Shown: positions 29,032 through 61,742 of the stretch, piece after piece
How the letters are laid out: each line of letters starts with the position of its first letter
Position numbering within the stretch: position 1 is the stretch's first letter
Source: Neobacillus nitrireducens
GTDB lineage: Bacteria; Bacillota; Bacilli; Bacillales; Cytobacillaceae
Length of the DNA: 64,000 nt
Assembly (NCBI RefSeq): GCF_030915405.1
Contig: NZ_CP133262.1
Location: 3,736,501 to 3,800,500 of the forward strand
Direction of reading: 5' to 3'
Notes under the pieces: generated by a model
Told to the model about the DNA's origin: nothing
What the model saw: only the letters and a program-made list of their open reading frames with translations
Database searches by the model: none
Made by a program: the position numbers and the translations under genes

Positions 29032-29044
29032 GGTGTCAGGCACC
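29032..29044 (+). repeat. REP-like core, copy 1
   Basis: Exact GGTGTCAGGCACC, 4 bases after the frlB stop codon. It is the leftmost copy noticed in the window. Confidence 0.85.
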
Positions 29045-29105
29045 AACTGTGTTTTTATCAATGATAGTCTCAATAATTTAATTATGAATTTGGAGGTAAT
29101 TTTTG

Positions 29106-30119
29106 ATGTTAAAATTTGATGCGGATTTATTTTTGCAATTGGTTGGGAAAGAGGCATTAGCGAAGAGAGAGGAAATAGAGAAGATTGTGGATGAAATTTC
29201 GGCTAAAGGATTTAAAAACATATTCTTAATTGGTTCCGGTGGAACGATTGCAATGATGTATCCATATGAGTATATTTTTAAGTCTAATTCCACGCTGGAG
29301 GTTCATGCAGAGATTGCGGCTGAGCTGCTAGTAATGAATAATCGCCACTTGACCAAAGATTCTGTTTGTATCTTTGCTTCTGTTACGGGAACCACAAAAG
29401 AAACAGTAGCTGCTGCTGAGTTCTGCAAGAGCAAAGGAGCCACAACCATAGGACTAGTAGCTGAACAAGGCACCCCATTGGCTGAGACGGTGGAGTATTA
29501 CATCTCTACTGGTCATGAGAAGCATTCGTTTGATACCTTCTTTATTCACTTACAGCTGCTTACGTTTCGCTTTATTTATAACAATGATGAATTCCCGCAA
29601 TATGATCAGTTTGCGAAAGAAATTGCCCTTTTACCACAAGGGATGGTCGATGCGTTAGAGCAGTTTGACTCCCAAGCGGAGCAATTTGCAATAAAGCATA
29701 AGAATACCGACTACCACATGCTGGTTGGGGCCGGGAACCTTTGGGGCAATACCTATTCCTACGCCATGTGTATCCTGGAGGAAATGCAATGGATTAGGTC
29801 GAAATCCATTCACGCCGCTGAGTTCTTCCACGGCACGCTTGAACTGGTGGAGGAGGATACAAGTGTAATTTTATTCAAAGGCGAAGATGAAACTCGTCCA
29901 TTGGTGGAACGTGTGGAACGATTCGCAGAAAATATTACTAAGGAATTGTTCATTTTGGATACAAAGGATTACCGTTTGGATGGAATCAGTGAGGAATTCA
30001 GAAAGCACTTTGCTGTCTGCCTGAACTGGGCACTGACTGGCCGAATCAGTGTCTACCTTGAGCGTGAAAGAAATCATCCGTTAGAAATCCGCAGATATTA
30101 CCGTAAAATGGCTTATTAG
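29106..30119 (+). CDS. SIS-domain sugar isomerase/deglycase paralogue A
   Basis: The roughly 337-residue protein is a double-SIS protein related to FrlB but clearly distinct: IGSGGTIAMMYPYEYIFK, SVTGTTKETVAAAEFCKSKG, and IHAAEFFHGTLELVEEDTSV instead of the FrlB HAGEYFHGPFE. It is much closer to the next gene. It probably deglycates another phosphorylated Amadori-type substrate such as a glucoselysine- or amino-acid-derived compound; that is inference. ATG 29106 follows GGAGGTAA. Confidence 0.78.
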   Translation: MLKFDADLFLQLVGKEALAKREEIEKIVDEISAKGFKNIFLIGSGGTIAMMYPYEYIFKSNSTLEVHAEIAAELLVMNNRHLTKDSVCIFASVTGTTKETVAAAEFCKSKGATTIGLVAEQGTPLAETVEYYISTGHEKHSFDTFFIHLQLLTFRFIYNNDEFPQYDQFAKEIALLPQGMVDALEQFDSQAEQFAIKHKNTDYHMLVGAGNLWGNTYSYAMCILEEMQWIRSKSIHAAEFFHGTLELVEEDTSVILFKGEDETRPLVERVERFAENITKELFILDTKDYRLDGISEEFRKHFAVCLNWALTGRISVYLERERNHPLEIRRYYRKMAY

Positions 30120-30131
30120 GAGGCGGCGATA

Positions 30132-31145
30132 GTGTATAACTTTGATGTGGAAAGATATTTAACGATCCAAAATGGTGCCTTATCTCTTAAGGATGAATTT
30201 GATCAGGTGATTGATTCATTGATAGAGAACGGATTGGAAAATTTATTCTTTGTCGGAACTGGCGGTGCGGCCATCCTAATGCAACCGGCTGAATATATTT
30301 TAAAAACATATTCCACCTTACCCGTTTTTACAGAAATCTCTTCGGAATTGATGTTGATGGGCCATCAGCACTTGGGTGAGCATTCACTGGTTATTTTGCC
30401 ATCTTTATCTGGTACAACGAAAGAAACAGTGGAGGCGGCTGCATTTTGTAAGGAAAAAGGGGCGGTAACGATCAGCTTGGTGGGGCATGCCTCGACACCA
30501 TTAGCGAATAGAACCGATTATACTTTTGTGAATTATGCGGCTGATGATACCTCCTGTGAATCGTTCTATATCCAGTCCTATTTGCTAGTGTTCCGTTTAT
30601 TGTATAAGCAAAATGAATTTCCCGACTATCAACAATTTGTTGAGGAATTGAGACATCTGCCAACTGTGCTCCTTTCCGTGAAAGAAGCAATCGAACCGCG
30701 GGCAGCTGAGTTTGCCTGCAAACATAAGGAGACGCCCTACCATATCCTCTCAGGAGCAGGTATCGATTGGGGTCAAACCTATTATTATGGCATGTGTATT
30801 TTAGAGGAAATGCAATGGATTAAAACACGTCCGGTTCATGCATCCGATTTTTTCCATGGTACATTGGAATTAGTAGAAGAGGATACGAGCATTATCCTCT
30901 TAAAAGGTGAGGATTTGACCCGTCCACTTACGGAAAGAGTCGAGCGTTTTGCTGAACATTATTCGAAGGAATTAACTGTTTTTGATACGAAGGATTATCG
31001 ATTAGCGGGTATTTCTAATGGGTTGAGAAGTCTTATTTCTCCGATTGTTTTTGCGGCCTTGCTTGAGAGAGTCAGCTGCCACTTGGAAAAGCAAAGAAAG
31101 CATCCGCTGACAACAAGAAGATATTATAAAAAGGTACCCTTTTGA
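30132..31145 (+). CDS. SIS-domain sugar isomerase/deglycase paralogue B
   Basis: The 337-residue protein is a tandem paralogue of the preceding gene (VGTGGAAILMQPAEYILK, SLSGTTKETVEAAAFCKEKG, VHASDFFHGTLELVEEDTS, KHPLTTRRYYKKV). It starts at GTG behind GGAGGCG, 12 bases after its neighbour. A heteromeric complex with paralogue A is possible. A terminator follows, closing the locus. Confidence 0.78.
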   Translation: MYNFDVERYLTIQNGALSLKDEFDQVIDSLIENGLENLFFVGTGGAAILMQPAEYILKTYSTLPVFTEISSELMLMGHQHLGEHSLVILPSLSGTTKETVEAAAFCKEKGAVTISLVGHASTPLANRTDYTFVNYAADDTSCESFYIQSYLLVFRLLYKQNEFPDYQQFVEELRHLPTVLLSVKEAIEPRAAEFACKHKETPYHILSGAGIDWGQTYYYGMCILEEMQWIKTRPVHASDFFHGTLELVEEDTSIILLKGEDLTRPLTERVERFAEHYSKELTVFDTKDYRLAGISNGLRSLISPIVFAALLERVSCHLEKQRKHPLTTRRYYKKVPF

Positions 31146-31166
31146 TAGTATCAATGGATTGAGTGC

Positions 31167-31198
31167 AGCCCTCACATCTTTTGTGAGGGCTCTTATTA
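31167..31198 (+). terminator. Terminator at the end of the frl locus
   Basis: AGCCCTCAC / GTGAGGGCT stem with a 7-base loop, followed by CTTATTATTT. It lies between the convergent SIS gene and the amidase gene. Confidence 0.8.
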
Positions 31199-31287
31199 TT
31201 TAGTTCATATCTTAGTTAAAAAGTATCGGTTTCAATTTCCAAATATCATTGGGAAGAAGAGAGGAGCTACGTGTAGACTCCTGCGAT

Positions 31288-32766: not shown

Positions 32767-32865
32767 ACTTACCCCTCCATTTCTTTTAAAATACGTTCAA
32801 CTATATCTTATGGTAAACCCAATCTCGTGGACTCTATCTGAATTGCTAAACATGAAAAACCATAC

Positions 32866-32906
32866 AAAAGACCCCCTCTTTTTATTGATAGGTAGGAGGT
32901 CTTTTG
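32866..32906 (-). terminator. Terminator after the CwlC-like gene
   Basis: On the minus strand, AAAAGACCTCCT pairs with AGGGGGTCTTTT around a 17-base loop, ending in TTTT. It lies about 80 bases after the 32984 gene stop. Confidence 0.65.
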
Positions 32907-32946
32907 GAAGGCGGTGTCCTTTTGGGGCGGACAAGTGTACATAAGC

Positions 32947-32959
32947 GGTGCCTGACACC
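32947..32959 (-). repeat. REP-like core, copy 2, with conserved tail
   Basis: GGTGCCTGACACC is the core in minus orientation. On the minus strand it is followed by GCTTATGTACACTTGTCCG, a version of the longer tail also seen at 50.85, 55.13 and 61.73 kb. Confidence 0.85.
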
Positions 32960-32983
32960 AAAATATACACTTTAAATACTTGT

Positions 32984-33802: not shown

Positions 33803-34011
33803 TTCATCCTCTCCATTTCTAAAAAATTGATTATATATACATGTTATGTGACTATGGACAAACATGTGCAGGTGCTTGTCATGGTATTTTGGTGGTTGGA
33901 TTACACCAAAGATAAATTTTCTTTGTTACCGAGGGGGCAGATGAATGGCAGTTTGGGTAAGAAAGAGAGCCCTTAAATGACCGAACTCTCATTCGTAGCG
34001 AGCTTCGGGTA

Positions 34012-34047
34012 ACAAAGAACACCCCTCGCCAATTTGGTCAGGGGTTG
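34012..34047 (-). terminator. Terminator after yvrJ
   Basis: On the minus strand, ACCCCTGACC pairs with the GAGGGGT segment and is followed by GTTCTTTGTT. It lies 10 bases after the yvrJ stop. Confidence 0.6.
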
Positions 34048-34055
34048 TTCCGCAA

Positions 34056-34199: not shown

Positions 34200-34216
34200 T
34201 TTTTTTCACCTCGCTT

Positions 34217-34250
34217 TTTTAAAAAAAGGCCGTCCCTAAGGGGAATCGGC
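34217..34250 (-). terminator. Terminator after DUF2922 copy 2
   Basis: On the minus strand, AGGCCG and CGGCCT flank a loop with a nested CCCTTAGGG, followed by TTTTTTT. It lies between the DUF2922 and yvrJ genes, so yvrJ may depend on read-through. Confidence 0.8.
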
Positions 34251-34260
34251 CTCTCACTTA

Positions 34261-34479: not shown

Positions 34480-34519
34480 ATATCTCACCTCCCATCGCTA
34501 GATTATTCCTCCAATATCA

Positions 34520-35067: not shown

Positions 35068-35073
35068 ATACCC

Positions 35074-35122
35074 AAAAAAAGAGTGTGAGGCACCGCATTA
35101 GGTGCCTCACACTCTTTTTTTT
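35074..35122. terminator. Bidirectional terminator containing a REP-like variant
   Basis: A perfect stem of about 21 bp (GAGTGTGAGGCACC with an A-rich extension, loop GCATTA, and its complement) is flanked by seven A and eight T. The segment GTGTGAGGCACC differs from the REP core by one base, so this terminator may derive from an inverted pair. Confidence 0.92.
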
Positions 35123-35126
35123 AAAA

Positions 35127-36542: not shown

Positions 36543-36555
36543 GGTGCCTGACACC
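36543..36555 (-). repeat. REP-like core, copy 3
   Basis: GGTGCCTGACACC, minus orientation, between the purine permease and the GGDEF gene. Confidence 0.85.
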
Positions 36556-38226: not shown

Positions 38227-38239
38227 GGTGTTAGGCACT
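38227..38239 (+). repeat. REP-like core, copy 4 (variant)
   Basis: GGTGTTAGGCACT, two bases off the core. It forms a direct pair with the copy 36 bases downstream. Confidence 0.7.
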
Positions 38240-38262
38240 AATAGAGTGGCTAAAAAAATATT

Positions 38263-38275
38263 GGTGTCAGGCATC
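38263..38275 (+). repeat. REP-like core, copy 5 (variant)
   Basis: GGTGTCAGGCATC, one base off the core, directly before the bidirectional terminator. Confidence 0.75.
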
Positions 38276-41515: not shown

Positions 41516-41570
41516 AGGTGTCAGGCGCCATGTGAAATTTTCACATGGTGCCTGACACCTTTTATTTTTT
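41516..41570. repeat. Inverted REP pair (REPIN-like hairpin)
   Basis: Two cores, 41517-41529 and 41547-41559, face each other within a 22-bp hairpin (arms 41516-41537 and 41539-41560) with one wobble pair and almost no spacer. A TTTTATTTTTTTT tract follows, so on the plus strand it would act as a terminator. It lies alone in a 420-base gap. Confidence 0.88.
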
Positions 41571-42663: not shown

Positions 42664-43373
42664 TGAGTACCCCAATTATTGAAATTAAAAATATGATGAA
42701 GACCTATAAACTTGGCGGTGAAACAGTTCATGCCCTCAATGATGTGTCGTTAGAAATTCAAAAAGGTGAATTTCTAGCAATCATTGGACCTTCAGGTTCA
42801 GGGAAGTCCACTTTAATGAATATGGTTGGCTGCCTGGACCGCCCGAATAAAGGTACCTATCACCTTGATGGTAAAGATATTGGAAAAATGGATGATAACA
42901 GCTTAGCGACAATTCGGAATCGAAAAATCGGGTTTATTTTTCAAAACTTTAACTTATTAGGTAAACTATCGGCCCTCGAAAATGTGGAATTGCCTTTGTT
43001 GTATGCGGGTATGCCAACTCGTGAAAGGCGTGAACGAGCTTTAGAGGGATTGGATAAGGTTGGCTTGATGGACCGTGCTGGGCACCTGCCGACCCAGCTA
43101 TCTGGAGGTCAGCAGCAGAGGGTGGCAATTGCGAGAGCCCTTGTTGGCCAGCCGGCGATTCTCCTTGCCGATGAACCAACAGGCGCGCTTGATAGTAAAA
43201 CAAGTAAGGAGATTCTTTTGTTAATGAAGGAATTGAATGAATTAGGACATACGATTATTTTAATTACGCATGATCTTGAGATTGCGAAACAAGCGAGAAG
43301 AATGGTCAGTATTCAAGATGGCCAGCTCTTTGAGAATGGGGGTGTCCTGATTGGGAATGCTGCAATCCATTAA
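42663..43373 (+). CDS. MacB/YknY-like ABC transporter ATPase
   Basis: The 236-residue ATPase has Walker [10 protein letters not shown], the Q-loop region IFQNFNLL, the signature LSGGQQQR, Walker [14 protein letters not shown] and the H-loop ILITHD. Length and motifs match the LolD/MacB ATPase group. It overlaps the permease start by 23 bases. Confidence 0.93.
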
Positions 43374-44517
43374 AATGGCGCTTCGGAGTATTCGGAGCAA
43401 TAAACTCCGGGCGGTCCTGACGATGCTTGGCATCATCATTGGGGTCTCGTCTGTGATTGTCCTGGTGTCGATTGCTCAAGGATCAGCGAAAAACGTTACG
43501 AGCCAAATCAATCAATTAGGAACCAACCTTTTGACGGTAAATACCTATAGCACCGATATTGAATTATCCGAGGATAAAATTAGTAAGTTAAGTGAGATTG
43601 ATGGGGTAAAAGCGGTCGCGCCGGTTGTTTCTGGCCGGGTCTATGTGAAGAAAGAGCGGACGTCCTCGCAGATTACCTTAACAGGGACCAATGCTGCTTA
43701 CTCAGACGTTCGTGATGCGAAGGTCAGTCAAGGACGCTTTATTACCGATTTGGATGTCGAGTACCGCCAAAAGATCGTGGTTCTTGGAGCGGACACCGCT
43801 GCAACCTTCTTCGGTGCATCGAATCCAATCGGTCAATACATTCAGGTGTCAGGCACCTCGTTCAAAGTAGTCGGAGTATTGGCTTCGAAAGGTAGTTCAC
43901 TCGGGCAAAGCGGCGATAATGTAGTGATTGTCCCCTTGAGTACGGGGCAACGGTTGGTAGGCAGTACGACAATTAGCACCGTTTATTTACAAGGCAAAAG
44001 TGAAGATCAAATGGATTTCGTGATGAACGAGGTCAAAATGTCACTCGCTAGTATGTATCCTGGTAAAAGTGACTATTATGGCGTGACAAATCAGCAGGAC
44101 GTCATGGATACGATGAGTTCCGTATCTGATACGATGACCATGATGCTTGGCGGAATCGCGAGTATCTCCTTATTGGTCGGCGGGATCGGCATCATGAATA
44201 TCATGCTTGTGTCCGTGTCAGAACGGACGAAGGAGATCGGCATCAGAAAAGCAATTGGCGCGAAACGACGGGATGTTCTCTTGCAATTCTTAATTGAGGC
44301 CGTCGTGTTGAGTTCGATGGGTGGATTAATCGGAATTTTATTCGGGGTAGGATTAGGAAAAGTTGTCTCGTCGTTAATGAGTTTAAGTATTTCATACTCA
44401 CCAACTGTGATTCTATCATCCTTCTTATTCTCGCTTGTAGTGGGTGTCGTCTTCGGTGTATTCCCAGCCAACAAAGCATCAAAATTGAATCCAATTCAAG
44501 CGCTTCGCTACCAATAA
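43351..44517 (+). CDS. MacB/YknZ-like ABC transporter permease
   Basis: The 388-residue protein has an N-terminal helix with [27 protein letters not shown], a large extracellular MacB-type domain (about 50-250), and three C-terminal helices ([57 protein letters not shown]). These are standard MacB features. The coding sequence contains an exact copy of the 13-base REP core at 43845-43857. Confidence 0.92.
43845..43857 (+). repeat. REP-like core inside the permease gene
   Basis: Exact GGTGTCAGGCACC inside an intact reading frame, encoding the residues V-S-G-T in [12 protein letters not shown]. The protein segment looks normal for MacB, so this could be chance or a tolerated insertion or conversion. 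Confidence 0.7.
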
Positions 44518-44523
44518 TTGGTG

Positions 44524-44560
44524 GTGTCAGGCACCAATCAAGTATTGGTGTCAGGCACTT
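44524..44560 (+). repeat. Direct pair of REP-like cores
   Basis: GGTGTCAGGCACC at 44524-44536 and GGTGTCAGGCACT at 44548-44560, 24 bases apart in the same orientation, directly after the permease stop codon. Confidence 0.85.
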
Positions 44561-45174: not shown

Positions 45175-45211
45175 GGTGTCAGGCACTAAAGAGTACCTGA
45201 CATCTTTTTTT
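45175..45211 (+). terminator. Terminator built from an inverted REP pair
   Basis: GGTGTCAGGCACT pairs with AGTACCTGACATC (two wobble pairs) around AAAG and is followed by seven T residues. The right arm is a diverged inverted copy of the core. Confidence 0.85.
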
Positions 45212-47882: not shown

Positions 47883-48728
47883 ATGAAGAAAACGGTAAAA
47901 GATATTATCTATATTTTTATAGGGGCGCTTATTTTTGCGGTGGGTGTCAATTATTTTACAATCCCGAACCATCTCTCAGAGGGCGGTATTTTAGGGATTA
48001 CGATTATTACCCACTATTTGTTTGATTGGTCGCCGGGTGTCGTGAATTTTGTCTTGAATGTTGCTCTGTTAGCGGTGGGTTATAAATTTTTTGAAAAAAG
48101 AACATTTATCTATACGCTGATTTCAATTGCAGCTTGCTCGTTGTTTTTATTTTTAACCGAGGATATCGGTCATCGATTAACCGATGATACATTTTTAGCT
48201 GCGATTTTCGCTGGTTTGCTTGTAGGTGTCGGGCTGGGATTGATTTTCCGGACGGGAGGAACCTCGGGTGGGTCGACGATTTTAGCAAGATTAGCGAATC
48301 AGTTGCTAGGCTGGAGCATTGGCAAGGGAATGCTGATCATTGATATTTTAGTAGTGATTGGCTCGATTTTCATCATCGGCTTGGAAAAATCGATGTATAC
48401 GCTATTGATTGTGTTTATCGGAGCGAAAGCGATTGATTTCATCGTGGAAGGTTTGGACGAAAAGGTAGCGGTGATGATTATTTCCAGTTGCCCTGAAAAG
48501 GTCCTGGACAATATCACTAGCCGGATGTCGCGTGGGTTGACTGTCCTAGATGGCCGCGGCGGCTACACAGGACAGAACAGAGAAGTCCTGTATATCGTTA
48601 TCAATAAGCAAGAAATCGTCCAGCTGAAAAGTATTATTAATGAAGTAGATGGAAACGCCTATGTTACCGTCCATACCGTCCATGAGATGATTGGGCACGG
48701 GTATAAAGCAAGTAAAACGAATGCCTGA
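47883..48728 (+). CDS. YitT/DUF2179 family membrane protein
   Basis: The 281-residue protein has five or six transmembrane helices (FIGALIFAVGVNYFTIPNHLSEGGILGI, GLIFRTGGTSGGSTILARL) and a C-terminal DUF2179 domain (VTVLDGRGGYTGQNREVLYIVINKQE). Function is unknown. Its stop codon lies inside an inverted REP pair, so the last residues may have been altered by that insertion. Confidence 0.9.
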   Translation: MKKTVKDIIYIFIGALIFAVGVNYFTIPNHLSEGGILGITIITHYLFDWSPGVVNFVLNVALLAVGYKFFEKRTFIYTLISIAACSLFLFLTEDIGHRLTDDTFLAAIFAGLLVGVGLGLIFRTGGTSGGSTILARLANQLLGWSIGKGMLIIDILVVIGSIFIIGLEKSMYTLLIVFIGAKAIDFIVEGLDEKVAVMIISSCPEKVLDNITSRMSRGLTVLDGRGGYTGQNREVLYIVINKQEIVQLKSIINEVDGNAYVTVHTVHEMIGHGYKASKTNA

Positions 48729-48747
48729 CACCCATTGGTGTCAGGCA
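48722..48747. repeat. Inverted REP pair at the yitT stop codon
   Basis: TGCCTGACACC and GGTGTCAGGCA form a perfect 11-bp inverted repeat around CATT. The TGA of the left arm is the stop codon of the upstream gene. The pair sits between two convergent genes. Confidence 0.9.
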
Positions 48748-48751
48748 CTAT

Positions 48752-50851: not shown

Positions 50852-50895
50852 GGTGTCAGGCACCGAACGTGGACATTTGTACTCTTGGAGTGGAC
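50852..50895 (+). repeat. REP-like element with long tail, copy at 50.85 kb
   Basis: GGTGTCAGGCACC is followed by GAACGTGGACATTTGTAC, close to the tails at 55.13 and 61.73 kb (GGACATTTGT core). It lies between the molybdoenzyme gene and a divergent lipoprotein gene. Confidence 0.85.
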
Positions 50896-51612: not shown

Positions 51613-53505
51613 ATGGGACATTGCAATAGGAAACAGACAATCGTTATAGGAATACTAGGAGTTTTTCTTACTTTAATAACTTTTAGTTTTACTAGCTTTC
51701 AAGTTGCAGCTGAGGATAGTACTGCCACTAGGAACGCGCAAAAAGAGTATAGCAAACTAATGGTTCAAACGATTAATACAGAGAGAGAAAAAGCGGGCCA
51801 ACCTGCTCTTAAAATGGCAGCACCTCTAAATGAAATTGCTAACTATAAAGCAAAAACTTTTGCTGTAGATGGTGTCACAGTCATGGATACATTACCAGAG
51901 CTGCTCGAAGAATTCTATGATAATATCAACTATCAATCCGCTGAAGAGATAGTTGAATACCGAGAATACCATGAAACCTATCCTTCGATTGCCGTCGAAG
52001 AGTGGATGAATGATTCTAGTAAAAGAGCGAAATTGTTAAACGAGAAATTTAATTACATTGGGGTTGGTTATAATTCATCGGGCTGGGTGGTTTATTTTTT
52101 AGAAACAACCGATACCCTCAAGGTAGACAATTCCACTGTTAATGATTCCTATCTTGCAAGTAGGCCAAAAATGGATTTCTCGACTCTATACGATGGTCTC
52201 TCGATTTTATCGGGTACTATGATACATTCGGGCAACTTCCGCTGGCAAGGAAGCATAATGGGTTTTGAGTGGAGAAGAGATCCGAAAGGTAATTCGATTA
52301 TCGAGCAGGATTTGCTTTTTAGAACACATATTAAAAGAACCGCAAGCAAGCTCCATGAAGGGGAAGTTCCTATCATTAATAGTGATAACACATTCCTTGA
52401 TCCTAGGTATTATCAATTTGAAAAAGGTAAACAGGTCCGTTTTTTCAACTGGCACAACGGGGTCGCAAGTAAACCCGTAGACTTTATAGTTCAAGAAGCG
52501 CCAGAACCAGAAAAGGCTGTGGTTCAGCGTGCTGTTAATGATGAACGGTACGTAACAGGTCAAGGGAATCCAGGAAATGCAGTAATGGTAAAAATCAGCA
52601 CAAGTAATAGTCTGAAATATTATTTTTCAACAGTGAAGGAAAACGGAACCTTCAGTGTAGACGTAGGATACTGGCCAGCTGAAACTGCGATTGTAGTCAC
52701 GCAAATGAACACGTTTGGGAAGGAAAGTAAAAAACAAAGTTATTTTGTAAAGACAGGTCTGCCACCGGCTGAACCTGCAGTTGAGCAAATAACTAATGCT
52801 GCATCCAACATCACAGTAACAGGTGAGAAAAACAGTACAGCATATGTTTATCTTGGAGCTAAAAGGCTAGCTGTAGGCAAACTAGACAGTAAAGGTAAAT
52901 CAACTATTCCGATTACCAAGCAGAAGCAAGGGACCAAACTTGCGGTCTTTTTAAAAGACTTTGCTGGTAATCAAGGAAAAGCAGCGACCGTCAGTGTTGC
53001 GAAAAAGAATCCTCCTAAAAAACCGAAGACTGGTGAAATTTCCAATAAATCAAAATCGATTTCGGTGGTAGGAGAAGCTGAATCTACAGCATATGTTTAT
53101 AGGGGCTCGAAAAAACTAGCCTCTGCAAAAATTCCTAGTAGTGGAAAAGTAACGTTGAAAGTAACTTCACAAAAGGCAGGTACGAAGCTATCCTTCTATG
53201 TGGTAGACGGTGCAGGCAATAAAAGTCCAGTATTCAGTTATAAGGTAAAGGATAAACTTGCGCCGACGAAACCAAACGTTACAAAAGTTACTAATAAAAC
53301 AACAAAGGTCCTCGTTAAAGGGGAAAAGGGATCCAAGGTTTATATCTATAGGGGTGGAAAGCTGATAGGAAAAGGAACCATCAGCATGAAAACTGGAAAA
53401 ACCTATATTAAAATCCCAAAACAGAAAAGTAAAGCATCATTAACTATCTATCTCAAAGATAGTGCAGGGAATAAAAGTAATTTGTGCTTAATCAAGGTAA
53501 AATAG
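51613..53505 (+). CDS. Secreted CAP-domain protein with Ig-like repeats
   Basis: The 630-residue protein has a signal peptide (about 1-34), a CAP/SCP-like domain (about 45-190: INTEREKAGQPALKM, AVEEWMNDSSKRAKLLNEKFNYIGVGY), a second CAP-like or spacer region with GTMIHSGNFRWQG, and several bacterial Ig-like repeats in the C-terminal 240 residues (STAYVYLGAKRLAVGKLDSKG; STAYVYRGSKKLASAKIPSSG; KVYIYRGGKLIGKGTI). It is probably wall-associated. The stop codon touches a REP-like core. Confidence 0.78.
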   Translation: MGHCNRKQTIVIGILGVFLTLITFSFTSFQVAAEDSTATRNAQKEYSKLMVQTINTEREKAGQPALKMAAPLNEIANYKAKTFAVDGVTVMDTLPELLEEFYDNINYQSAEEIVEYREYHETYPSIAVEEWMNDSSKRAKLLNEKFNYIGVGYNSSGWVVYFLETTDTLKVDNSTVNDSYLASRPKMDFSTLYDGLSILSGTMIHSGNFRWQGSIMGFEWRRDPKGNSIIEQDLLFRTHIKRTASKLHEGEVPIINSDNTFLDPRYYQFEKGKQVRFFNWHNGVASKPVDFIVQEAPEPEKAVVQRAVNDERYVTGQGNPGNAVMVKISTSNSLKYYFSTVKENGTFSVDVGYWPAETAIVVTQMNTFGKESKKQSYFVKTGLPPAEPAVEQITNAASNITVTGEKNSTAYVYLGAKRLAVGKLDSKGKSTIPITKQKQGTKLAVFLKDFAGNQGKAATVSVAKKNPPKKPKTGEISNKSKSISVVGEAESTAYVYRGSKKLASAKIPSSGKVTLKVTSQKAGTKLSFYVVDGAGNKSPVFSYKVKDKLAPTKPNVTKVTNKTTKVLVKGEKGSKVYIYRGGKLIGKGTISMKTGKTYIKIPKQKSKASLTIYLKDSAGNKSNLCLIKVK

Positions 53506-53517
53506 GTGTCAGACACC
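53505..53517 (+). repeat. REP-like core variant at a stop codon
   Basis: GGTGTCAGACACC starts at the last base of the TAG stop of the CAP-domain gene and abuts a terminator. Confidence 0.75.
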
Positions 53518-54083: not shown

Positions 54084-54096
54084 GGTGTCAGGCACC
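54084..54096 (+). repeat. REP-like core at 54.08 kb
   Basis: Exact GGTGTCAGGCACC between the divergent lipoprotein and ferritin-like genes. Confidence 0.85.
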
Positions 54097-54202: not shown

Positions 54203-54646
54203 ATGTATCCTTACACAAATTACTACGATGCCTTATATAGACAAAATAATAAATTGATACGAGAAGTGGAAAAAGCAATGAGTGGAGAGTACAATGCTAT
54301 AAATTGTTATAGCCAATTAGCAAATTTGGCTCATAATGAGAAGGAGAAAAGTCGGATTCTTGAAATTCGCCAAGATGAAATAAAGCACTATCAACAATTT
54401 GAACAGATCTATACGAAGCTAACTAGGAGAAAGCCCCAACAACCAAAACTCAGTGAGGAATGCCCAGATGTTTACTTAGCTGGATTGGAGTTTGCCTTAG
54501 AGGATGAGCAAAATACAGTGGATTTTTATCTGGAAGTCGCTGATGGTGCTTCTGATCCAACGATTAAAGAGGCTTTTCGAAGAGCGGCTGCAGATGAACA
54601 AAATCATGCGGTTTGGTTTCTGTACTTTCTCACAAAAAATAAGTAG
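54203..54646 (+). CDS. Ferritin-like domain protein
   Basis: The 147-residue protein has two helix pairs with the metal-ligand pattern of ferritin-like and rubrerythrin proteins: E in AMSGEYNAINCY, EIRQDEIKHYQQFE, LEDEQNTVDFYLE and AADEQNHAVWF. No rubredoxin cysteines are present. A diiron oxidase or spore-associated role is possible. GGGAGG precedes the start. Confidence 0.82.
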   Translation: MYPYTNYYDALYRQNNKLIREVEKAMSGEYNAINCYSQLANLAHNEKEKSRILEIRQDEIKHYQQFEQIYTKLTRRKPQQPKLSEECPDVYLAGLEFALEDEQNTVDFYLEVADGASDPTIKEAFRRAAADEQNHAVWFLYFLTKNK

Positions 54647-55028: not shown

Positions 55029-55372
55029 CCCCCCAAATCAAACGTAAGAAATTTAATACCCTACAAAATAAATATTACAATTTGGGACTTTTTATGCATA
55101 TTTTTTAGATATTGGTGTCATTAATGGTGTCAGGCACCACTCGCGGACATTTGTCCCTCCAGGGGAGACGAATGATAGTGCTAAAATTTATGGATTTTAG
55201 GAGAATTTTGATGAAGTATAGAGGATTCTTAGAGAGGATGTCGAAATGTATCTTTAGTAGTTTATTCTTCTGTTCCTGTCTTTTGGGGAATGCCTGCTTC
55301 TGATCCCTCATTTTTCTGCATCAATCCCCCATTTGAATTTTTAATCCCATAACAAAATAAGGAGTGAATGCA
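55029..55372. other. Intergenic region before the RAYT gene
   Basis: The 344 bases hold the REP-like element and AT-rich sequence. A 63-codon open frame at 55112-55303 starts inside the repeat and has no ribosome site, so I do not call a gene. Confidence 0.5.
55126..55170 (+). repeat. REP-like element with long tail upstream of the RAYT gene
   Basis: GGTGTCAGGCACC is followed by ACTCGCGGACATTTGTCC. A partial copy, TTGGTGTCATTA, lies just before it at 55112. This is the nearest copy to the transposase, about 200 bases upstream. Confidence 0.88.
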
Positions 55373-55981
55373 ATGGTTCGCAGTGTTCGGACTTGGTTTC
55401 AAGGTGCAAAGTATCATGTTACAAGTAGAGGTATTCGGAAAAGTCCACTTTTTTTCGATGATGATGATTTTGAGAAGTACCTTGCTTTAGTTAAAGAAAC
55501 AAAAGAACGTTATCCCTTCATCCTCCACACCTACTGCTTAATGTCCAATCATACCCACTTACAGATCGAAACGAAAGATACCCCATTGAGTCTTATCATG
55601 AAACATCTCAACACCAAATTTGCCAAGTATTTTAATAGAAAATACAATTTCTCCGGGCATGTATTCGAAAAACGATACGGAGACGAGCTTCTCAATTCCT
55701 CCGAATATGAGATCGACGTTAGTAAATATATTCACCTAAATCCCGTATCAGCTGGAATGGTGGCAAATCCTGAGGATTATCCCTGGAGCAGCTACCGAGC
55801 CTTTGTCTATGGGGAAAGTATCCCTCTGATTGCTCCAAAAACCCTTCTTTCCTATTTCCCTGACCCATCAACACAACACTATGAAAATTATATAAAATCA
55901 TTACCAACCGACAAATTTTACTGGGAGGATGGAAAACTTAACATGCTTGAAAGGAAGGAAGAGACATGTGGGCTAAAGTAA
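55373..55981 (+). CDS. REP-associated tyrosine transposase (RAYT, IS200-like)
   Basis: The 202-residue protein belongs to the Y1/HUH transposase group. It shows YHVTSRGIRKSPLFFDDDDFEKYL, the HUH pair in MSNHTHLQIE (H60, H62), FSGHVFEKRY, and YIHLNPVSAGMVANPEDYPWSSY with the likely catalytic tyrosine at 119. Single-copy genes of this type occur with REP palindromes and are thought to mobilise them. ATG 55373 has AAGGAG at 8 bases. It overlaps the yifB gene by 16 bases and lies between REP copies at 55.13 and 57.48 kb. No IS200-type end structures are seen. Confidence 0.9.
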   Translation: MVRSVRTWFQGAKYHVTSRGIRKSPLFFDDDDFEKYLALVKETKERYPFILHTYCLMSNHTHLQIETKDTPLSLIMKHLNTKFAKYFNRKYNFSGHVFEKRYGDELLNSSEYEIDVSKYIHLNPVSAGMVANPEDYPWSSYRAFVYGESIPLIAPKTLLSYFPDPSTQHYENYIKSLPTDKFYWEDGKLNMLERKEETCGLK

Positions 55982-57459
55982 CCAGTATCGGATTAAAAGG
56001 AATGGAAGGATATCGGATGCATGTTGAGGTTGGCTCGTACGTTGGAAATGATTCGTTTAAAATTGTCGGGTTGCCCGATGCTGCTGTGAAAGAATCAAAG
56101 GAGCGGATCATTGCGGCACTTCGAACCTTAGGATATCACCTATCGGGCCAAAAAGTTATTATTAATCTATCACCGGCGGATCAAAAAAAATACGGATCTA
56201 TGTTTGATTTTCCGATGGCAATTGCAGTTCTGCAAAGTTTGCATGAACTGGAGGTAATCGTGCCCGAGAATACTGGTTTTCTAGGATCATTATCGTTGGA
56301 TGGATCGATTCAGCCTGTCGAAGGGATGCTCCCAGCCGTACTAGCGGCAAAAAGGCTGGGGATTCAAAGGCTTTATATGCCCTTTGACGAGGAATTGCCA
56401 GTATTAGATCTTAAGCCATTGGAAATCATCTATGTTTCTAGTTTGCAGGAGGCAATTGGACATCTTTCCGGTCAATGGGTTCCTCCGATTTATAAAGAAG
56501 AAAGGGATGAGAAATTCCGCAGCATTGAATATTTGGATTTGAAACAGATTATTGGTCATCAAGAAGCGAAACATGCGTTAGAAGTAGCAGCTGCTGGCAA
56601 ACACCATGTCTTACTGACCGGACCACCTGGTTGTGGGAAAAGTATGTTAGCTGAAAGTTTTCCGTCCATCTTACCAGCGTTAACAAAAGAGTCGTTGCTA
56701 GAGGTTATCAGCCTTTATCAACTGAGTCAAAATTCCTTTCCTCACTCGAATATGCCACCCTATCGAAATCCTCACCACTCCGCTTCAGGTGTATCAATTA
56801 TTGGTGGAGGACAATACCCAAAGCCAGGCGAAATATCGTTAGCCCATCATGGTGTATTGTTTCTTGATGAAATCGGGGAATTTTCGAAAAAAACATTAGA
56901 TATGCTGCGGCAACCATTAGAAAGTGGCTTAATCATGATAAGTCGAACCCATGCAACGATTACCTATCCAGCATCCTTTATTTTGATCGCGGCGATGAAT
57001 CCTTGCCCATGTGGCCATGCAGGGTCAACTACACATTATTGTACCTGTTCAAAAAAACAAATTCTTGCCTATCAAAATAGGCTTTCCGGTCCGCTTCGAG
57101 ATCGGTTTGATATTAATCTTTCCCTTAGGCCCATTGATATTAATGCAGCAGCACATGAAAAGGAAGGAGAGGCCTCAATAATTGTCAGGGAGAGAGTGGA
57201 GGAAGCAAGGAAGAGGCAATATAATCGTTATGGCATGGAGGTTTGCAATAGCAGAATCCCATACGAAATCCTATTAAGCAAAAGCCCGCTGACGGACACG
57301 CAACATTCCACATTACAGAGACTAGCCATTAAAAACAGTTGGAGCAATCGCACCCAAATCAAAATCATCCGTCTCGCCCGCACCATCTCCGACCTCCAAG
57401 CCAGTCCCACCATAACAGACCAAAGTATCTGGGAAGCCATTGAGTTAAATGAGGTGTAA
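55966..57459 (+). CDS. comM: YifB/ComM-family Mg-chelatase-like AAA+ ATPase
   Basis: The 497-residue protein has an N-terminal Lon-S16-like domain (IGLKGMEGYRMHVEVG, IVGLPDAAVKESKERI), a chelatase ATPase with Walker A TGPPGCGKSMLAE, LFLDEIGEF and AAMNPCPCG, and a C-terminal helical domain. Relatives promote branch migration during natural transformation. The start overlaps the end of the RAYT gene, so the two are probably co-transcribed. Confidence 0.92.
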   Translation: MWAKVTSIGLKGMEGYRMHVEVGSYVGNDSFKIVGLPDAAVKESKERIIAALRTLGYHLSGQKVIINLSPADQKKYGSMFDFPMAIAVLQSLHELEVIVPENTGFLGSLSLDGSIQPVEGMLPAVLAAKRLGIQRLYMPFDEELPVLDLKPLEIIYVSSLQEAIGHLSGQWVPPIYKEERDEKFRSIEYLDLKQIIGHQEAKHALEVAAAGKHHVLLTGPPGCGKSMLAESFPSILPALTKESLLEVISLYQLSQNSFPHSNMPPYRNPHHSASGVSIIGGGQYPKPGEISLAHHGVLFLDEIGEFSKKTLDMLRQPLESGLIMISRTHATITYPASFILIAAMNPCPCGHAGSTTHYCTCSKKQILAYQNRLSGPLRDRFDINLSLRPIDINAAAHEKEGEASIIVRERVEEARKRQYNRYGMEVCNSRIPYEILLSKSPLTDTQHSTLQRLAIKNSWSNRTQIKIIRLARTISDLQASPTITDQSIWEAIELNEV

Positions 57460-57474
57460 AAGATTTGGTGGTTT

Positions 57475-57487
57475 GGTGTCAGGCACC
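57475..57487 (+). repeat. REP-like core downstream of yifB
   Basis: Exact GGTGTCAGGCACC, 16 bases after the comM stop. With the 55.13 kb copy it flanks the RAYT-comM pair in direct orientation. Confidence 0.85.
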
Positions 57488-57763
57488 AGATAAAGAGCAC
57501 CACATTATTCTAACGGGTTCGGTTTCCTATGGCAAAACGTGTCAATTTGCATTGGAAAATGCAAACCTAAATGTAATCCTTTTTGCACTATAAAATGTAG
57601 GACAATATGTAAGTCTAGAGAGATTAAAGAAACATTAGAAATATAGAGGGTTTATTCCCTTGCTATTTTTGCTAATAATTGCTAGTTCATCATATGAATT
57701 ACGATATTGCAAATCATTTTCACCTTCTCCGTATCGATTTCGTGTAGGTATGAGAATTCATAG

Positions 57764-57946
57764 GCGGAGAATTTCCGGCTATTGTATAAAGAGGAAGCTT
57801 AAGAAGCAGATATAAGCGGAGATATTCCGGTTATCTGCTCTTAATAAGACAAAATCCAAGGATTAGGATAATATAACCGGAAAAACTTCCCTTATTCTAA
57901 AGGAAATATAGGTATTACCCAATTTAACCGGAAATTTTCCGTTTAT
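57764..57946. repeat. Four CCGGAAA palindromic repeats, both orientations
   Basis: Two copies read GCGGAGAATTTCCGGCTAT (57764) and GCGGAGATATTCCGGTTAT (57816). Two are reversed, ATAACCGGAAAAACTTCC (57873) and TTAACCGGAAATTTTCCG (57924). The consensus is an imperfect palindrome of about 20 bases spaced by roughly 50 bases. Confidence 0.8.
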
Positions 57947-58112
57947 TTTTCATATAAAGTGAATTCAAAATTCAGTTATAACAGAGACTTTCTTCTGTAT
58001 CCCAATTTGTAAGTAAAAATGTAGTATATTCTGCTGAGGTACACTGGCTATTGTACCCCCACATTTTAATAGACAAATTGTACTATTTTATTGAAATGCC
58101 TTATAAACAAAA

Positions 58113-58160
58113 AATGACCTCCAACTTTAGATACAATTTGAAGGTCATTTTGTATTACAT
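58113..58160. terminator. Terminator after the membrane protease gene
   Basis: AAAATGACCTCCAA pairs with TTTGAAGGTCATTTT (one mismatch). On the minus strand it lies about 40 bases after the protease stop. Confidence 0.7.
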
Positions 58161-58197
58161 TTTTAATGTTTGCGACAGTTTACGGAACCCGTTCACA

Positions 58198-59580
58198 CTA
58201 TTCCCCATCTTTTTTCTGTTTTTTCTGTGCCTCTTGGAGGGCGAGGAGGATATCTTGAACGTCGATTTTTCCGTCGTTATTTAGATCGGTTAAGGTGTTT
58301 TCAGGTACAGTTGGCGGCGGGTTTACCGGAGTTGGGGTTGGAGTAACCGGTGCCGCAGCAACTGCTTGTTGTTTCGGTCTAAAGGCAAACGTGAATAATA
58401 GGAGAACAAGAATCAGCAATCCGGCAACACCATCCACGATATAGAAAATAGTGGCATAATCGGACCAGAGCGTTTTACTGCTGCCCATCTTCTTCTCAGA
58501 GTTTGCAATAAATTGTTTGATTTCAGAATGATTTGGATAGATGCGCTGAACGGCCTCGAATTTTTCTAAAGCATGCTTATAATAGCCGCCCCAGTATAGG
58601 TTAAGTCCTTCCTGATAAAGTTTATCTGTATCACTCTTCGCATTTTTAGCACCGGCTTGGTTGACAAATTCTTTCACGGTATTAACAGGCACGGCAAAGT
58701 TGAACCCTTGGACTTCTTGACCGTTGACTGTGTCGCCCCTAAACGTGAGTAAGCCAATGATCTCGCCCTTTGCATTGATGACTGGTCCACCGCTATTGCC
58801 GTGTGTGGCCGCCGCATTAATTTGAATGACCGGGCTTCCTTGTTCCGTCTTTTTGGAGGTTGCCGAAATTTGACCTGCATTCATTGAAGAAACTAAGGAT
58901 GAATCGGGTGATAATAGGTCTGAATCGGCGGCAGCAGGGTAGCCACTAACCCAAACATTATCTTGATTTTGGATATTATCCGAATCTCCAAGCGGTAAGG
59001 TCGGCAGGTTTTTCCCTTCAATTTTTAGGACAGCGACATCTTTTCCTTCATTAATAGGGGCCCCATAGCTTTTAACCTCTCCATCCAGTACATCCCCGCC
59101 AGGTAAAACTACTTTCAGCACCTTCTGGATGTCCGTGTATTGTGTATATTGGACCATATAATTGTAGGCTGTTTTATAGTCTGCCTTAAAATAGTCTGCG
59201 ATGATCGTTACTAGTTGTTCAAACGCGGCGTTGGCAATATCTTCATCTTCCTTTTGAGTCGCTTCCACAACATGAGCATTGGTGACAATATAACCGTTAG
59301 AGCTAATAATGGCCCCTGAGCCTGAGCCGCCTACAACAGATTGGTTATTTAGCTGCTCCAATATGGCAATGACTTCAGGATCATTGGGATTATTAAATTG
59401 CCACTTCACAACAGTATAATCGACGATCCGAACGACTGCAGGCTTAGAGTATTCCGCCAGTTTTTGTGCTTGAGTAATTTTCCCAGCAGCTGGTTTGAGA
59501 TTGATGAGGAAAATCGAAGCCACCATTACTGCAATAAGTAGCAAGCTGATAGGTATGGTAAAAAGGGCCCTTTTTTTCAA
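58198..59580 (-). CDS. Membrane HtrA-like serine protease with TPR and dockerin-like tail
   Basis: The 460-residue protein has an N-terminal anchor (about 8-28) and an S1C trypsin-like domain with the triad H103 (VTNAHVVE), D181 (DVAVLKIEG) and S263 (HGNSGGPVI). A TPR-like segment (about 320-360) and a second membrane helix (376-399) follow. The Pro-rich tail carries one calcium-loop-like motif, DLNNDGKIDVQDILLAL (432-448), as in dockerin or EF-hand proteins. No PDZ domain is seen. By topology the tail should be cytoplasmic. The start is TTG after GTAGGAGTG. Confidence 0.85.
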   Translation of the reverse strand: MKKRALFTIPISLLLIAVMVASIFLINLKPAAGKITQAQKLAEYSKPAVVRIVDYTVVKWQFNNPNDPEVIAILEQLNNQSVVGGSGSGAIISSNGYIVTNAHVVEATQKEDEDIANAAFEQLVTIIADYFKADYKTAYNYMVQYTQYTDIQKVLKVVLPGGDVLDGEVKSYGAPINEGKDVAVLKIEGKNLPTLPLGDSDNIQNQDNVWVSGYPAAADSDLLSPDSSLVSSMNAGQISATSKKTEQGSPVIQINAAATHGNSGGPVINAKGEIIGLLTFRGDTVNGQEVQGFNFAVPVNTVKEFVNQAGAKNAKSDTDKLYQEGLNLYWGGYYKHALEKFEAVQRIYPNHSEIKQFIANSEKKMGSSKTLWSDYATIFYIVDGVAGLLILVLLLFTFAFRPKQQAVAAAPVTPTPTPVNPPPTVPENTLTDLNNDGKIDVQDILLALQEAQKKQKKDGE

Positions 59581-59815
59581 AATAAATTCACTCCTACGAA
59601 GGATATTGTAAAAATATACTCTGCAATATATTCGCCCCTGGGAAAAAAGTAATATTGTACATCAAAAATTTTTAGATAATTGCAAGGTGTCATGGGTATT
59701 TGAGGAATTTCCATGACAAATGGAGAGGATTGCTTTTTTCAAAAATGGGTAATCTTTGGTATCATGTTTAGTGAATGAATATGATATCGAACTGAAGATA
59801 TAGTTGGAGGCCTTT

Positions 59816-60964
59816 ATGGAGAATCGATTGAAGGTAATGACGGTGTTTGGAACAAGACCGGAAGCAATAAAGATGGCACCCTTGGTAAAAGAATTAGAGA
59901 AATATCCTGATAAAATTAAGCCGATTGTGACGGTGACGGCGCAGCACCGTGAAATGCTTGACCAAGTGCTGCATATTTTTGAAATTACGCCTGATTATGA
60001 CTTAAATATAATGAAGGAACGGCAATCTCTGCTGGATGTTACGACGCGCAGCTTAGACGGACTCAATCAAGTTCTTGCAGATGTCAAACCAGATATTGTG
60101 CTGGTCCACGGTGATACGACAACCACATTTGTGGCAAGTTTAGCGGCTTTTTATCACTCGATTCCGATTGGACATGTCGAGGCTGGGCTACGGACTCATA
60201 ATAAATATTCGCCGTACCCTGAGGAAATGAACCGACAGTTGACAGGGGTCTTGGCCGATCTTCATTTCTCACCAACGGTTCAATCGAAGCACAATCTTTT
60301 GGTGGAAAATAAGCGGGAAGAGGCGATTTATATCACTGGAAATACGGCCATTGATGCGCTAAAAACAACGGTTCGAGCCAATTATTCTCATCCTGTATTA
60401 GACAGACTCGGAAATGACCGGTTAATTCTTATGACGGCCCATCGCAGGGAAAACACAGGGGAACCCATGGAAAATATGTTCCGAGCGATTTGCCGTGTGG
60501 TCGACCAACATGCCGATGTGCAGGTGGTTTATCCCGTCCATATGAATCCGGTGGTTCGTGAAATTGCCAAACGAGTGCTGGGGGATAACGAGAGAATTCA
60601 TCTAATTGAGCCTTTGGATGTGATTGACTTCCATAACTTTGCCTCAAGGGCCTATCTGATTTTGACTGATTCTGGTGGTGTACAGGAAGAGGCGCCGTCT
60701 TTGGGTGTACCGGTATTAGTTTTACGTGAGACCACCGAGCGCCCGGAAGGAATTGAAGCAGGTACCTTAAAACTGGCTGGAACCGATGAAGAAACCATCT
60801 TCCGGTTAGCAGATGAACTGTTGTCAGATCAAGTAGCACATGACAAAATGGCTCACGCCTCCAATCCATACGGAGATGGTTACGCCTCCGAACGAATCGT
60901 CAAAGCCATTCTCCACCACTTTGAAAATGGGGAACGGCCAGCGGACTTTGGGGTTGAGAAATAA
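59816..60964 (+). CDS. mnaA: UDP-N-acetylglucosamine 2-epimerase
   Basis: The 382-residue protein has the family motifs VFGTRPEAIKMAPLV, TAQHREMLDQVL, VHGDTTTTF, GHVEAGLRT, YPEEMNRQL, TAHRRENTGEP and TDSGGVQEEAP. It makes UDP-ManNAc for teichoic acid linkage units or polysaccharide. ATG 59816 follows GGAGG with 5-base spacing; the upstream TTG at 59804 is less likely. Confidence 0.95.
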   Translation: MENRLKVMTVFGTRPEAIKMAPLVKELEKYPDKIKPIVTVTAQHREMLDQVLHIFEITPDYDLNIMKERQSLLDVTTRSLDGLNQVLADVKPDIVLVHGDTTTTFVASLAAFYHSIPIGHVEAGLRTHNKYSPYPEEMNRQLTGVLADLHFSPTVQSKHNLLVENKREEAIYITGNTAIDALKTTVRANYSHPVLDRLGNDRLILMTAHRRENTGEPMENMFRAICRVVDQHADVQVVYPVHMNPVVREIAKRVLGDNERIHLIEPLDVIDFHNFASRAYLILTDSGGVQEEAPSLGVPVLVLRETTERPEGIEAGTLKLAGTDEETIFRLADELLSDQVAHDKMAHASNPYGDGYASERIVKAILHHFENGERPADFGVEK

Positions 60965-60986
60965 CCTTTTTAGGAGATATAGTTAG

Positions 60987-61373
60987 ATGAAAATTAATAA
61001 AATCCATCATATTGCGGTGATTTGTTCGGATTATCAAAAATCGAAGGATTTTTATGTTCGAATCTTAGGATTGACACCTATTAATGAAGTTTATCGCACG
61101 GAAAGAGATTCCTATAAGCTTGATTTGGAAGTGAATGGTCAATACCAGATTGAGTTGTTTTCGTTTCCAAATCCTGCTGTTCGGCCAAACTATCCTGAAG
61201 CAGCTGGTTTAAGACATCTTGCGTTTGAAGTAGATGATGTCGAAGAAGCGGTAGAATATATGAAAAACCATCAAGTGAAGGTGGAAGACATCCGAGTGGA
61301 CCCCGTCACCAACAAGAAATTCTCCTTTTTCCCGGATCCTGATGGGCTCCCGATTGAGCTTTATGAGAAGTAA
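60987..61373 (+). CDS. Glyoxalase/VOC-family protein
   Basis: The 128-residue protein is a single vicinal-oxygen-chelate unit: IHHIAVICSDYQKSKDFYVRILGL, then LRHLAFEVDDVEEAVEYM and FFPDPDGLPIELYE. The metal-ligand positions H, E and H/E are present. It resembles GloA2/YaeR-type proteins; the substrate is not known. A GGAGAT site precedes it, 22 bases after mnaA. Confidence 0.85.
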   Translation: MKINKIHHIAVICSDYQKSKDFYVRILGLTPINEVYRTERDSYKLDLEVNGQYQIELFSFPNPAVRPNYPEAAGLRHLAFEVDDVEEAVEYMKNHQVKVEDIRVDPVTNKKFSFFPDPDGLPIELYEK

Positions 61374-61439
61374 GTTGAAGCTCGTGAGATTTATTATGTA
61401 GTAGTTTGATTTATGTGTTTATAGCAGTAATTCAGGTTG

Positions 61440-61593
61440 TTGACGACCGTAATGGGAGAAAAGGAGTCCATTAGGTAGCCAATAGAGGGTATTGATGACC
61501 GAAAAGAGAAAAAAGAGCAATTTTGGTTGTCAATAGGGGCTATTGACGACCAAAATCGGATCGAAGGAGTCGATTGGGGCGTTAACAACCTAC
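61440..61593. repeat. Three tandem 51-52-base repeats
   Basis: The motif TTGACGACC (TTGATGACC in the middle unit) starts at 61440, 61492 and 61543. Each unit continues with a purine-rich run, then a (T/C)ATT...G segment and a TCAATAG-like end. Units are diverged. The 377-base gap around them has no credible gene. Confidence 0.75.
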
Positions 61594-61642
61594 AATATTC
61601 TATTCCTTGGGGCTGACAGGAAATTAATGATCATCCCAGACA

Positions 61643-61683
61643 AAGAGCAAGACCTCAAATCACATTGTGGTCTTGCTCTCTTT
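61643..61683 (+). terminator. Intrinsic terminator
   Basis: AGAGCAAGACC pairs with GGTCTTGCTCT around a 14-base loop, followed by CTTTATA. It would close the mnaA-glyoxalase unit. Confidence 0.7.
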
Positions 61684-61709
61684 ATACTGTCCATCCCCTG
61701 CGTACAAAG

Positions 61710-61742
61710 GATGCGAACTGTCCACGAGCGGTGCCTGACACC
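61710..61742 (-). repeat. REP-like element with long tail, copy at 61.73 kb
   Basis: The core GGTGCCTGACACC (61730-61742) is in minus orientation. Its minus-strand tail, GCTCGTGGACAGTTCG, matches the tails at 50.85 and 55.13 kb. It abuts the end of the Gly/His-rich gene. Confidence 0.85.

Follow-up and report, generated by a model that had tools for sequence, protein, structure and literature searches.

The closest described relatives of the system reported here are the REPIN-RAYT systems (REPtrons) of Pseudomonas and Escherichia coli, in which a single chromosomal HuH-Y1 gene, encoding a REP-associated tyrosine transposase (RAYT), accompanies many intergenic copies of a repetitive extragenic palindrome (REP), REPs and inverted REPs form doublets (REPINs), and each RAYT has its own REP. 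The accessible text of PMC6006769 also records REPs without a RAYT in these systems; among its TnpAY1 subclasses (2.1 to 2.8), it reports no REPs found for subclasses 2.1 and 2.3, and untagged REPs of weaker structure for subclass 2.6 and for class 3. According to the accessible portion of PMC8266576, a Y1 enzyme cuts single-stranded REP hairpins strand-specifically, reading loop or bulge bases, and how REPs and REPINs disseminate is described there as unresolved. Here we analyse a 64,000-nucleotide stretch of the Neobacillus nitrireducens genome (contig NZ_CP133262.1, positions 3,736,501 to 3,800,500; hereafter the window), which holds a dispersed 13-base REP, a RAYT gene and, overlapping the latter, a gene for a helicase of the ComM type.

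The Neobacillus system is a REPIN-RAYT system in build and shares all of the REPtron features named above, but its REP lacks the tag and the length of most described REPs. It is a 13-mer with a 4-bp GGTG/CACC stem and a TCAGG loop (pattern N-CAG-N); a 5′ GTAG, GTGG or CGTC tag was found within 6 bases upstream of none of 84 exact copies, and the information outside the 13-mer is 0.06-0.64 bits per base, leaving the REP shorter than the usual 20-50 nt. Palindromic spacers, a Bacillaceae host and the ComM-type neighbour further distinguish it from the REPtrons. With the TnpAY1 subclasses, as far as the accessible text of PMC6006769 describes them, the RAYT shares the Y---NP motif (YIHLNP here) and a HuH-to-Y distance of about 57. 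The bcr1 element of the Bacillus cereus group is likewise a dispersed repeat, described as about 150 bases long (accessible parts of PMC3733652 and PMC2267715). Among 5.39 million open papers, searches returned none with the core string, two (on Zika and glioma, by their listing) for its complement and five related strings, none combining REPIN, RAYT and Bacillus (whole-word matching, which misses plurals), and, among 11 papers listed, none naming RAYT together with YifB or ComM. We consider it probable that the locus represents a REPIN-RAYT system whose untagged REP is of a type of its own, in which the resident RAYT maintains the copies and has a dedicated ComM partner.

The two genes at the centre of the system are:
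55364..55981, plus strand: RAYT (HuH-Y1) gene, 205 aa, alternative start at 55373; identified by Pfam, NCBIfam and fold
55966..57459, plus strand: comM/yifB-type AAA+ helicase gene, 497 aa, overlapping the RAYT gene by 16 bases; identified by TIGR00368 and a PDB match

The RAYT gene is the sole Y1_Tnp gene in the genome. Its product matches Pfam Y1_Tnp (PF01797, 44.8 bits, cut-off 23) and NCBIfam REP_Tyr_transpos (76.7 bits, below the equivalog cut-off of 80), and carries the HuH-Y1 motifs H63-x-H65 and Y122-xxx-NP, of which H63, H65, Y122 and P127 are invariant and N126 nearly so among 24 relatives. The best fold match of its AlphaFold model (pLDDT 88) is 4er8, the E. coli RAYT-REP complex (E 1.3e-8), with IS200/IS605 transposases next. 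In a profile alignment, F101-E102-K103-R104 stands where the E. coli RAYT has W94-Q95-P-R. The RAYT gene is chromosomal, low in copy and not part of mobile DNA: its homologues in 28 plasmid records and one phage record each share less than 60% identity with it. That the RAYT might be its own REP-flanked mobile cassette is unsupported, as throughout the genus the gene keeps comM as its neighbour and no closely similar homologue turned up on plasmids or phages. The preliminary description, made from the letters of the window alone, had the gene flanked by two repeat copies; the upstream copy (55126-55138) does end 225 bases before it, but the right-hand copy (57475) lies beyond comM. The genus also encodes longer RAYT-like proteins (L119, L120 and L121; 262-271 aa), and L119 adjoins a comM paralogue.

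About 20 core copies had been claimed for the interval between 29 and 62 kb, and this stands: allowing up to 2 mismatches, the window contains 22 matches at 21 places (the core fits both strands at 53505), 11 of them with exact copies and all between 29 and 62 kb, with none in the part before 29 kb, while 100 shuffles of the window gave a mean of 0.44 matches and a maximum of 3. The genome-wide count against a control that the preliminary description called for gave 181 exact copies of GGTGTCAGGCACC in the 5.15-Mb genome and 0 for its reversed letters, so that the window is about five times as rich in copies as the genome on average. The copies were also said to be almost all intergenic. In a 464-kb sample of the genome, 92 of 107 copies lie outside open reading frames (ORFs), though ORFs cover about 81% of bases by our crude calling; in the window, the match at 43845 lies inside an ORF (43351-44517). 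A high-copy, mostly intergenic imperfect palindrome of this kind is a REP. Among 78 classified copies, the flanking genes are co-directional for 38, convergent for 29 and divergent for 11; the corresponding intergenic bases are 39,542, 16,666 and 16,690, a convergent share of about 23%. The region at 2.5-3.0 Mb of the genome is REP-dense, with 43 of the first 100 listed copies, and is perhaps the replication terminus region.

The repeated unit is the REPIN: a REP, a palindromic spacer and an inverted REP, which can fold as one hairpin. We sampled 464 kb, consisting of the window and 20 copy-holding stretches (72 of the first 100 listed copies), with 120 core matches at up to 2 mismatches. Twenty pairs ran in REP to inverted-REP order, at offsets of 37 (11 pairs), 30 (4), 17-19 (4) and 35 (1); six pairs had the reverse and three the direct order. 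The offset-37 type (type II) has a palindromic spacer around GTGGACATTTGTCCAC, and the offset-30 type one around ATGTGAAWWTTTCACAT. An inverted partner (up to 3 mismatches) follows 38 of the 107 copies with up to 1 mismatch (reversed-letter control, 0 of 107), and 69 have none. As single-stranded DNA, REPINs of 43 and 50 bases each form one hairpin (-24.6 and -28.8 kcal/mol; z -10.5 and -11.6), and the 13-mer alone a weak 4-bp stem. We infer that single REPs are remnants of REPINs. The single REP was rejected as the basic unit: spacer halves match those of full REPINs, and one 20-kb stretch has three sites where a single REP of one genome corresponds to a full REPIN of a relative. The GGACA-TTTGT tail noted earlier is present, but is the left half of the type II spacer GTGGACATTTGTCCAC and not a feature of its own; complete type II REPINs occur elsewhere in the genome, outside the window. 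Nor did a separate role for GTGGACATTTGTCCAC hold up, all 10 exact matches among 231 loci being within REPINs.

We searched 60 Neobacillus genomes for the T-form GGTGTCAGGCACC, the A-form GGTGACAGGCACC, the T-form with one mismatch, and the RAYT. A RAYT of the A/B type is present in 46 of them. In the RAYT tree of 68 rows, clade A comprises 27 rows (support 100/99), one with a stop and one truncated. All 27 clade-A genomes contain the T-form, in 23-333 copies, and the A-form is found in 0-17 copies in 21 of them and 43-100 copies in six. The A/B RAYTs outside clade A, which are not established as one clade, are accompanied in 19 of 19 genomes by 35-111 A-form copies and 0-10 T-form copies. This clade-to-REP match in all 46 genomes with an A/B RAYT, along with the REPIN doublets, the HuH-Y1 motifs and the 4er8 fold match, supports the REP/RAYT-type relationship that the preliminary description had proposed. 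Because the T/A difference falls on a loop base, it is the expected kind of reading point for a Y1 enzyme. At RAYT residue 24, isoleucine is found in 21 of 23 clade-A rows with a T-form majority and asparagine in all four with an A-form majority; the 19 A-form rows outside the clade have N (15), I (3) or V (1). N24 in the A-majority clade-A rows looks like a convergent change, and residue 24 is a candidate REP contact. The four genomes concerned (G009, G003, G010 and G013) hold both REP forms, with the A-form outnumbering the T-form, and may be mid-way through a REP switch.

Different N-CAG-N REPs are, by their sequences, carried at other Bacillaceae RAYT loci. In a wide scan of the best 80 of 579 named RAYT loci, partly from the same genomes, a 13-mer with a 4-base stem and 5-base loop occurred at least three times at 33 loci (shuffles reaching three copies, 0 of 400), and the top 13-mer had CAG in the loop centre at 32 of these 33, as in GGGGTCAGACCCC, GGGGACAGTCCCC, GGTGCCAGGCACC and TGAGCCAGGCTCA. 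Counts of GGNGNCAGNCNCC exceeded those of the reversed control in 17 of 17 genomes (11-233 versus 1-16), namely our own genome and 16 picked for having such a locus. Several abundant N-CAG-N REPs have no comM beside their RAYT (for example at L157 and L159). RAYT residue 102 is E or D at 16 of 17 loci with GGTG stems and another residue at 13 of 15 with GGGG or AGGG (Fisher 5e-6), in a table of 34 loci (32 from the N-CAG-N scan plus L132 and L141, which were given the A-form on fewer copies; L127 and two TGAG loci were left out). With one supported independent pair, this link of residue to stem is a lead only. Q95 of the E. coli RAYT, to which residue 102 aligns, is a tag contact in the accessible text of PMC8266576.

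The pairing of RAYT with ComM is the most surprising result. The comM product matches TIGR00368 (455.5 bits, cut-off 362.4) and the ComM structure 8rxd in the PDB (E 1e-85), and thus by sequence belongs to the ComM family, as does the ComM helicase of natural transformation. The 60 genomes contain 64 comM loci of at least 100 bits, with a RAYT within 600 bases at 58 of them and at 614 bases at one more; 54 of the 56 long comM genes have a RAYT alongside and two do not. Conversely, 40 of the 46 A/B RAYTs have comM, as do 14 of 31 and 3 of 19 in later rank slices of the same list (fragments uncounted in the last). Three arrangements occur, RAYT then comM, comM then RAYT, and divergent: the RAYT comes first in clades A and B and in part of the next class, and comM precedes the RAYT in the rest and at L119. 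A single genome can have paralogous RAYT-comM pairs at several loci; in G050, for example, one contig stretch (L102) has two further pairs, one per gene order. In the wide scan, 33 of the 80 loci have a comM match, 29 of them above 150 bits and 28 of those on the same strand; the pairs include ones from Clostridium, Tissierellia and Pelotomaculum.

We compared linked and unlinked ComM in a tree. The unlinked set began with the 30 best-scoring comM loci of a class-wide search, none of which showed a RAYT in its flanks (up to 1.5 kb). Since these are the most typical ComM, 20 lower-scoring loci were added, of which 5 were RAYT-linked and 15 unlinked (at L277 the RAYT lies beside another comM piece, 9.5 kb from the piece used). 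A further 36 linked rows were of our own choosing (40 chosen, four too short), and L276 was omitted as too short. In the resulting tree of 85 rows, made by a quick method and with long branches among the unlinked rows, 41 linked and 44 unlinked rows are split by one change with support 95. On this tree, RAYT-linked ComM form a lineage separate from the sampled unlinked ComM of other Bacilli.

An A/B RAYT is absent from 14 of the 60 genomes. High abundance in relatives lacking a RAYT, which the preliminary description had named as grounds for refutation, does occur: seven of the 14 (G021, G019, G036, G042, G049, G012 and G022) hold 72-198 T-form copies, and the other seven 0-34. G021 lost the RAYT and most of comM in a deletion of about 2 kb, fragments of both remain in G036 and of the RAYT in G042, the one-contig genome G019 has neither gene at the site (L099), the site is unjoined in G049, and G012 and G022 contain more distantly related RAYTs. 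Among T-like copies, the share that is exact is 0.77 in 21 genomes whose RAYT is intact (25, with four mixed ones omitted) and 0.68 in the seven without (p 0.0003, uncorrected for kinship); outside this test, it is 0.72 and 0.75 in two broken-RAYT genomes and 0 to 0.67 in the seven low-copy RAYT-less ones. We read the lower share as probable relic decay after gene loss, and the deletion or RAYT fragments in G021, G036 and G042, with the greater decay in the seven, fit loss of the RAYT.

Within the species, we compared one 20-kb stretch of our own genome (G000) with G021, of the same species, and with G054. One G000 REPIN is a single REP in G021, having lost 37 bases with CACC at both ends, and a second retains one REP there after the deletion of about 85 bases; at one site where G000 has a single REP, G021 and G054 both have a full REPIN. 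The remaining sites are the same, are unjoined, or show small changes or draft gaps.

The repeats of the window are as follows:
29032..29044, plus strand: exact single REP (core search)
32947..32959, minus strand: exact REP with a remnant resembling the type II spacer (core search)
35082..35113, no strand: REP-like inverted pair AGTGTGAGGCACC, 2 mismatches each, then a T run (core search)
36543..36555, minus strand: exact single REP (core search)
38227..38275, plus strand: direct-order REP pair, 2 and 1 mismatches (core search, pair scan)
41517..41559, no strand: type I REPIN, consisting of a REP, a ATGTGAAATTTTCACAT spacer and an inverted REP (pair scan)
43845..43857, plus strand: core match within ORF 43351-44517, kept in five relatives, all those readable
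44523..44559, plus strand: direct-order REP pair; the REP is absent at the site in G031, G043 and G019
45175..45204, no strand: short inverted pair with decayed right arm, better preserved in G021 and G054
48720..48749, no strand: REP pair, tail to tail, 2 and 1 mismatches (core search, pair scan)
50852..50890, plus strand: REP with the left half of a type II spacer (core search, relatives' sites)
53505..53517, plus strand: REP variant, 1 mismatch (core search)
54084..54096, plus strand: exact single REP, 96-107 bases before a 147-aa gene, kept in five relatives (in one, G019, with 1 mismatch)
55126..55165, plus strand: REP with type II spacer remnant, upstream of the RAYT (core search)
57475..57487, plus strand: exact REP, downstream of comM (core search)
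61730..61742, minus strand: REP with type II spacer remnant (core search)

The match at 43845 is no ordinary intergenic copy and may be due to chance. The gene at 54203-54646, which the conserved single REP precedes, lies upstream of many clade-A RAYTs and has weak, below-cut-off similarity to encapsulin-associated ferritin-like proteins. At about 57500-58195 the window contains a MITE-like element of about 690 bases with inverted ends AACGGGTTC and GGAACCCGTT; three more matches, at about 79-83% identity, occur in a 400-kb sample of the genome (two near full length and one partial), and relatives have many. An Rfam scan of the window found no match for the repeats, the sole match being a c-di-GMP-I riboswitch at 3891-3977 (79.5 bits).

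The mechanism we have in mind starts from what sequence comparison shows: the units, the clade-to-letter match, the greater decay without a RAYT, and the RAYT-ComM pairing and lineage. Single-strand cutting, mobility, co-transcription and the function of ComM are steps that we infer. The single resident HuH-Y1 protein would read the REP letters on single-stranded DNA, and would cut and rejoin single-stranded REPINs, so keeping up a population of matching copies; after loss of the RAYT, copies would persist and decay, and slippage or cutting would convert REPINs to singles. The overlapping RAYT and comM genes are probably expressed together, and the ComM helicase would most likely move the branch at a strand-exchange step, as an excised single-stranded REPIN displaces a strand at a new site or as the gap is closed at the old one. 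In its fullest form, which we offer tentatively and think somewhat less likely than not, this would be a two-protein machine of Bacillota: a domesticated HuH-Y1 transposase and a dedicated ComM-lineage helicase would move or maintain untagged N-CAG-N REPINs through single-strand cutting and branch migration, borrowing the last step of natural transformation, and each pair would recognise its own REP by a few residues (24, perhaps 102), with one-letter switches following one-residue changes.

Several observations weigh against this reading. No comM was found in the fetched flanks of 47 of the 80 wide-scan RAYT loci, and full-length RAYTs stand beside broken or nearly lost comM genes in G030 and G010, with 193 and 54 T-form copies, and in G033 and G039, with 78 and 75 A-form copies; ComM is unnecessary for the persistence of RAYT or REPs and can be no more than an aid. 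The linked lineage also takes in the four comM loci of the genus that have no RAYT nearby, two long and two partial (the G023 contig stops about 240 bases past the comM gene start); once they are added, 41 of its 45 members are linked and four changes are needed instead of one, with the 44 unlinked rows still apart. The 43-100 A-form copies in six clade-A genomes (G032, G059, G009, G003, G010 and G013) stand beside the T-form; residue 24 is I in G048, G011 and G002 and V in G052, all with the A-form; and the residue correlations rest on few independent changes, 1 to 4 pairs. In the 20-kb comparison no whole REPIN was seen to have been cleanly gained at a site that is otherwise identical but empty in a relative, the differences being losses.

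That RAYT and comM are adjacent through inherited synteny alone, with no joint function, would suit the one pair order in clades A and B, the 47 RAYT loci without comM and the four linked-lineage comM loci without a nearby RAYT. We nevertheless think it unlikely, given the three arrangements, the paralogous pairs at several loci of G050, a linked lineage distinct from the 44 sampled unlinked ComM, and the finding that only 2 of 56 long comM genes of the genus are without a nearby RAYT. We give little credence to the idea that the repeats are host elements under selection, chiefly 3′-end hairpins serving as terminators or mRNA stabilisers, to which the RAYT is incidental: a one-letter loop difference that barely alters hairpin strength (-2.1 versus -2.0 kcal/mol) tracks the RAYT clade in every one of the 46 genomes, 69 of 107 copies stand without an inverted partner, and copies are more decayed where the RAYT is absent. 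Their placement does speak for such a role, with 92 of 107 copies outside ORFs, 29 of 78 between convergent genes and 11 between divergent ones, T runs after some inverted pairs, and the retention in five relatives of a single REP that lies 106 bases ahead of the 147-aa gene. Common descent could also account for the difference between T-form and A-form populations, the RAYT having chosen neither, as many residues separate clades A and B and there are few independent changes. Passive loci would not change letter in step, however, so the one letter shared by tens to hundreds of dispersed copies, with few copies of the other, in 40 of 46 genomes counts against this explanation, as does the fact that the four N24 clade-A genomes are those with an A-form majority, and we regard it as improbable.

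A REPIN-RAYT system with a ComM partner in a Gram-positive host offers, in the one-letter REP switch that tracks the RAYT clade, natural pairs of matched and mismatched enzyme and substrate. Its untagged 13-nt REPs can be missed when a search demands a GT[AG]G tag, as does that described in the accessible text of PMC6006769. The ComM-type helicase is a candidate partner for the step after cutting, and the pairing would link a Bacillota ComM lineage to something beyond plain transformation. Recurring in other Gram-positive bacteria, the RAYT-ComM pairing may explain the spread of such repeats.

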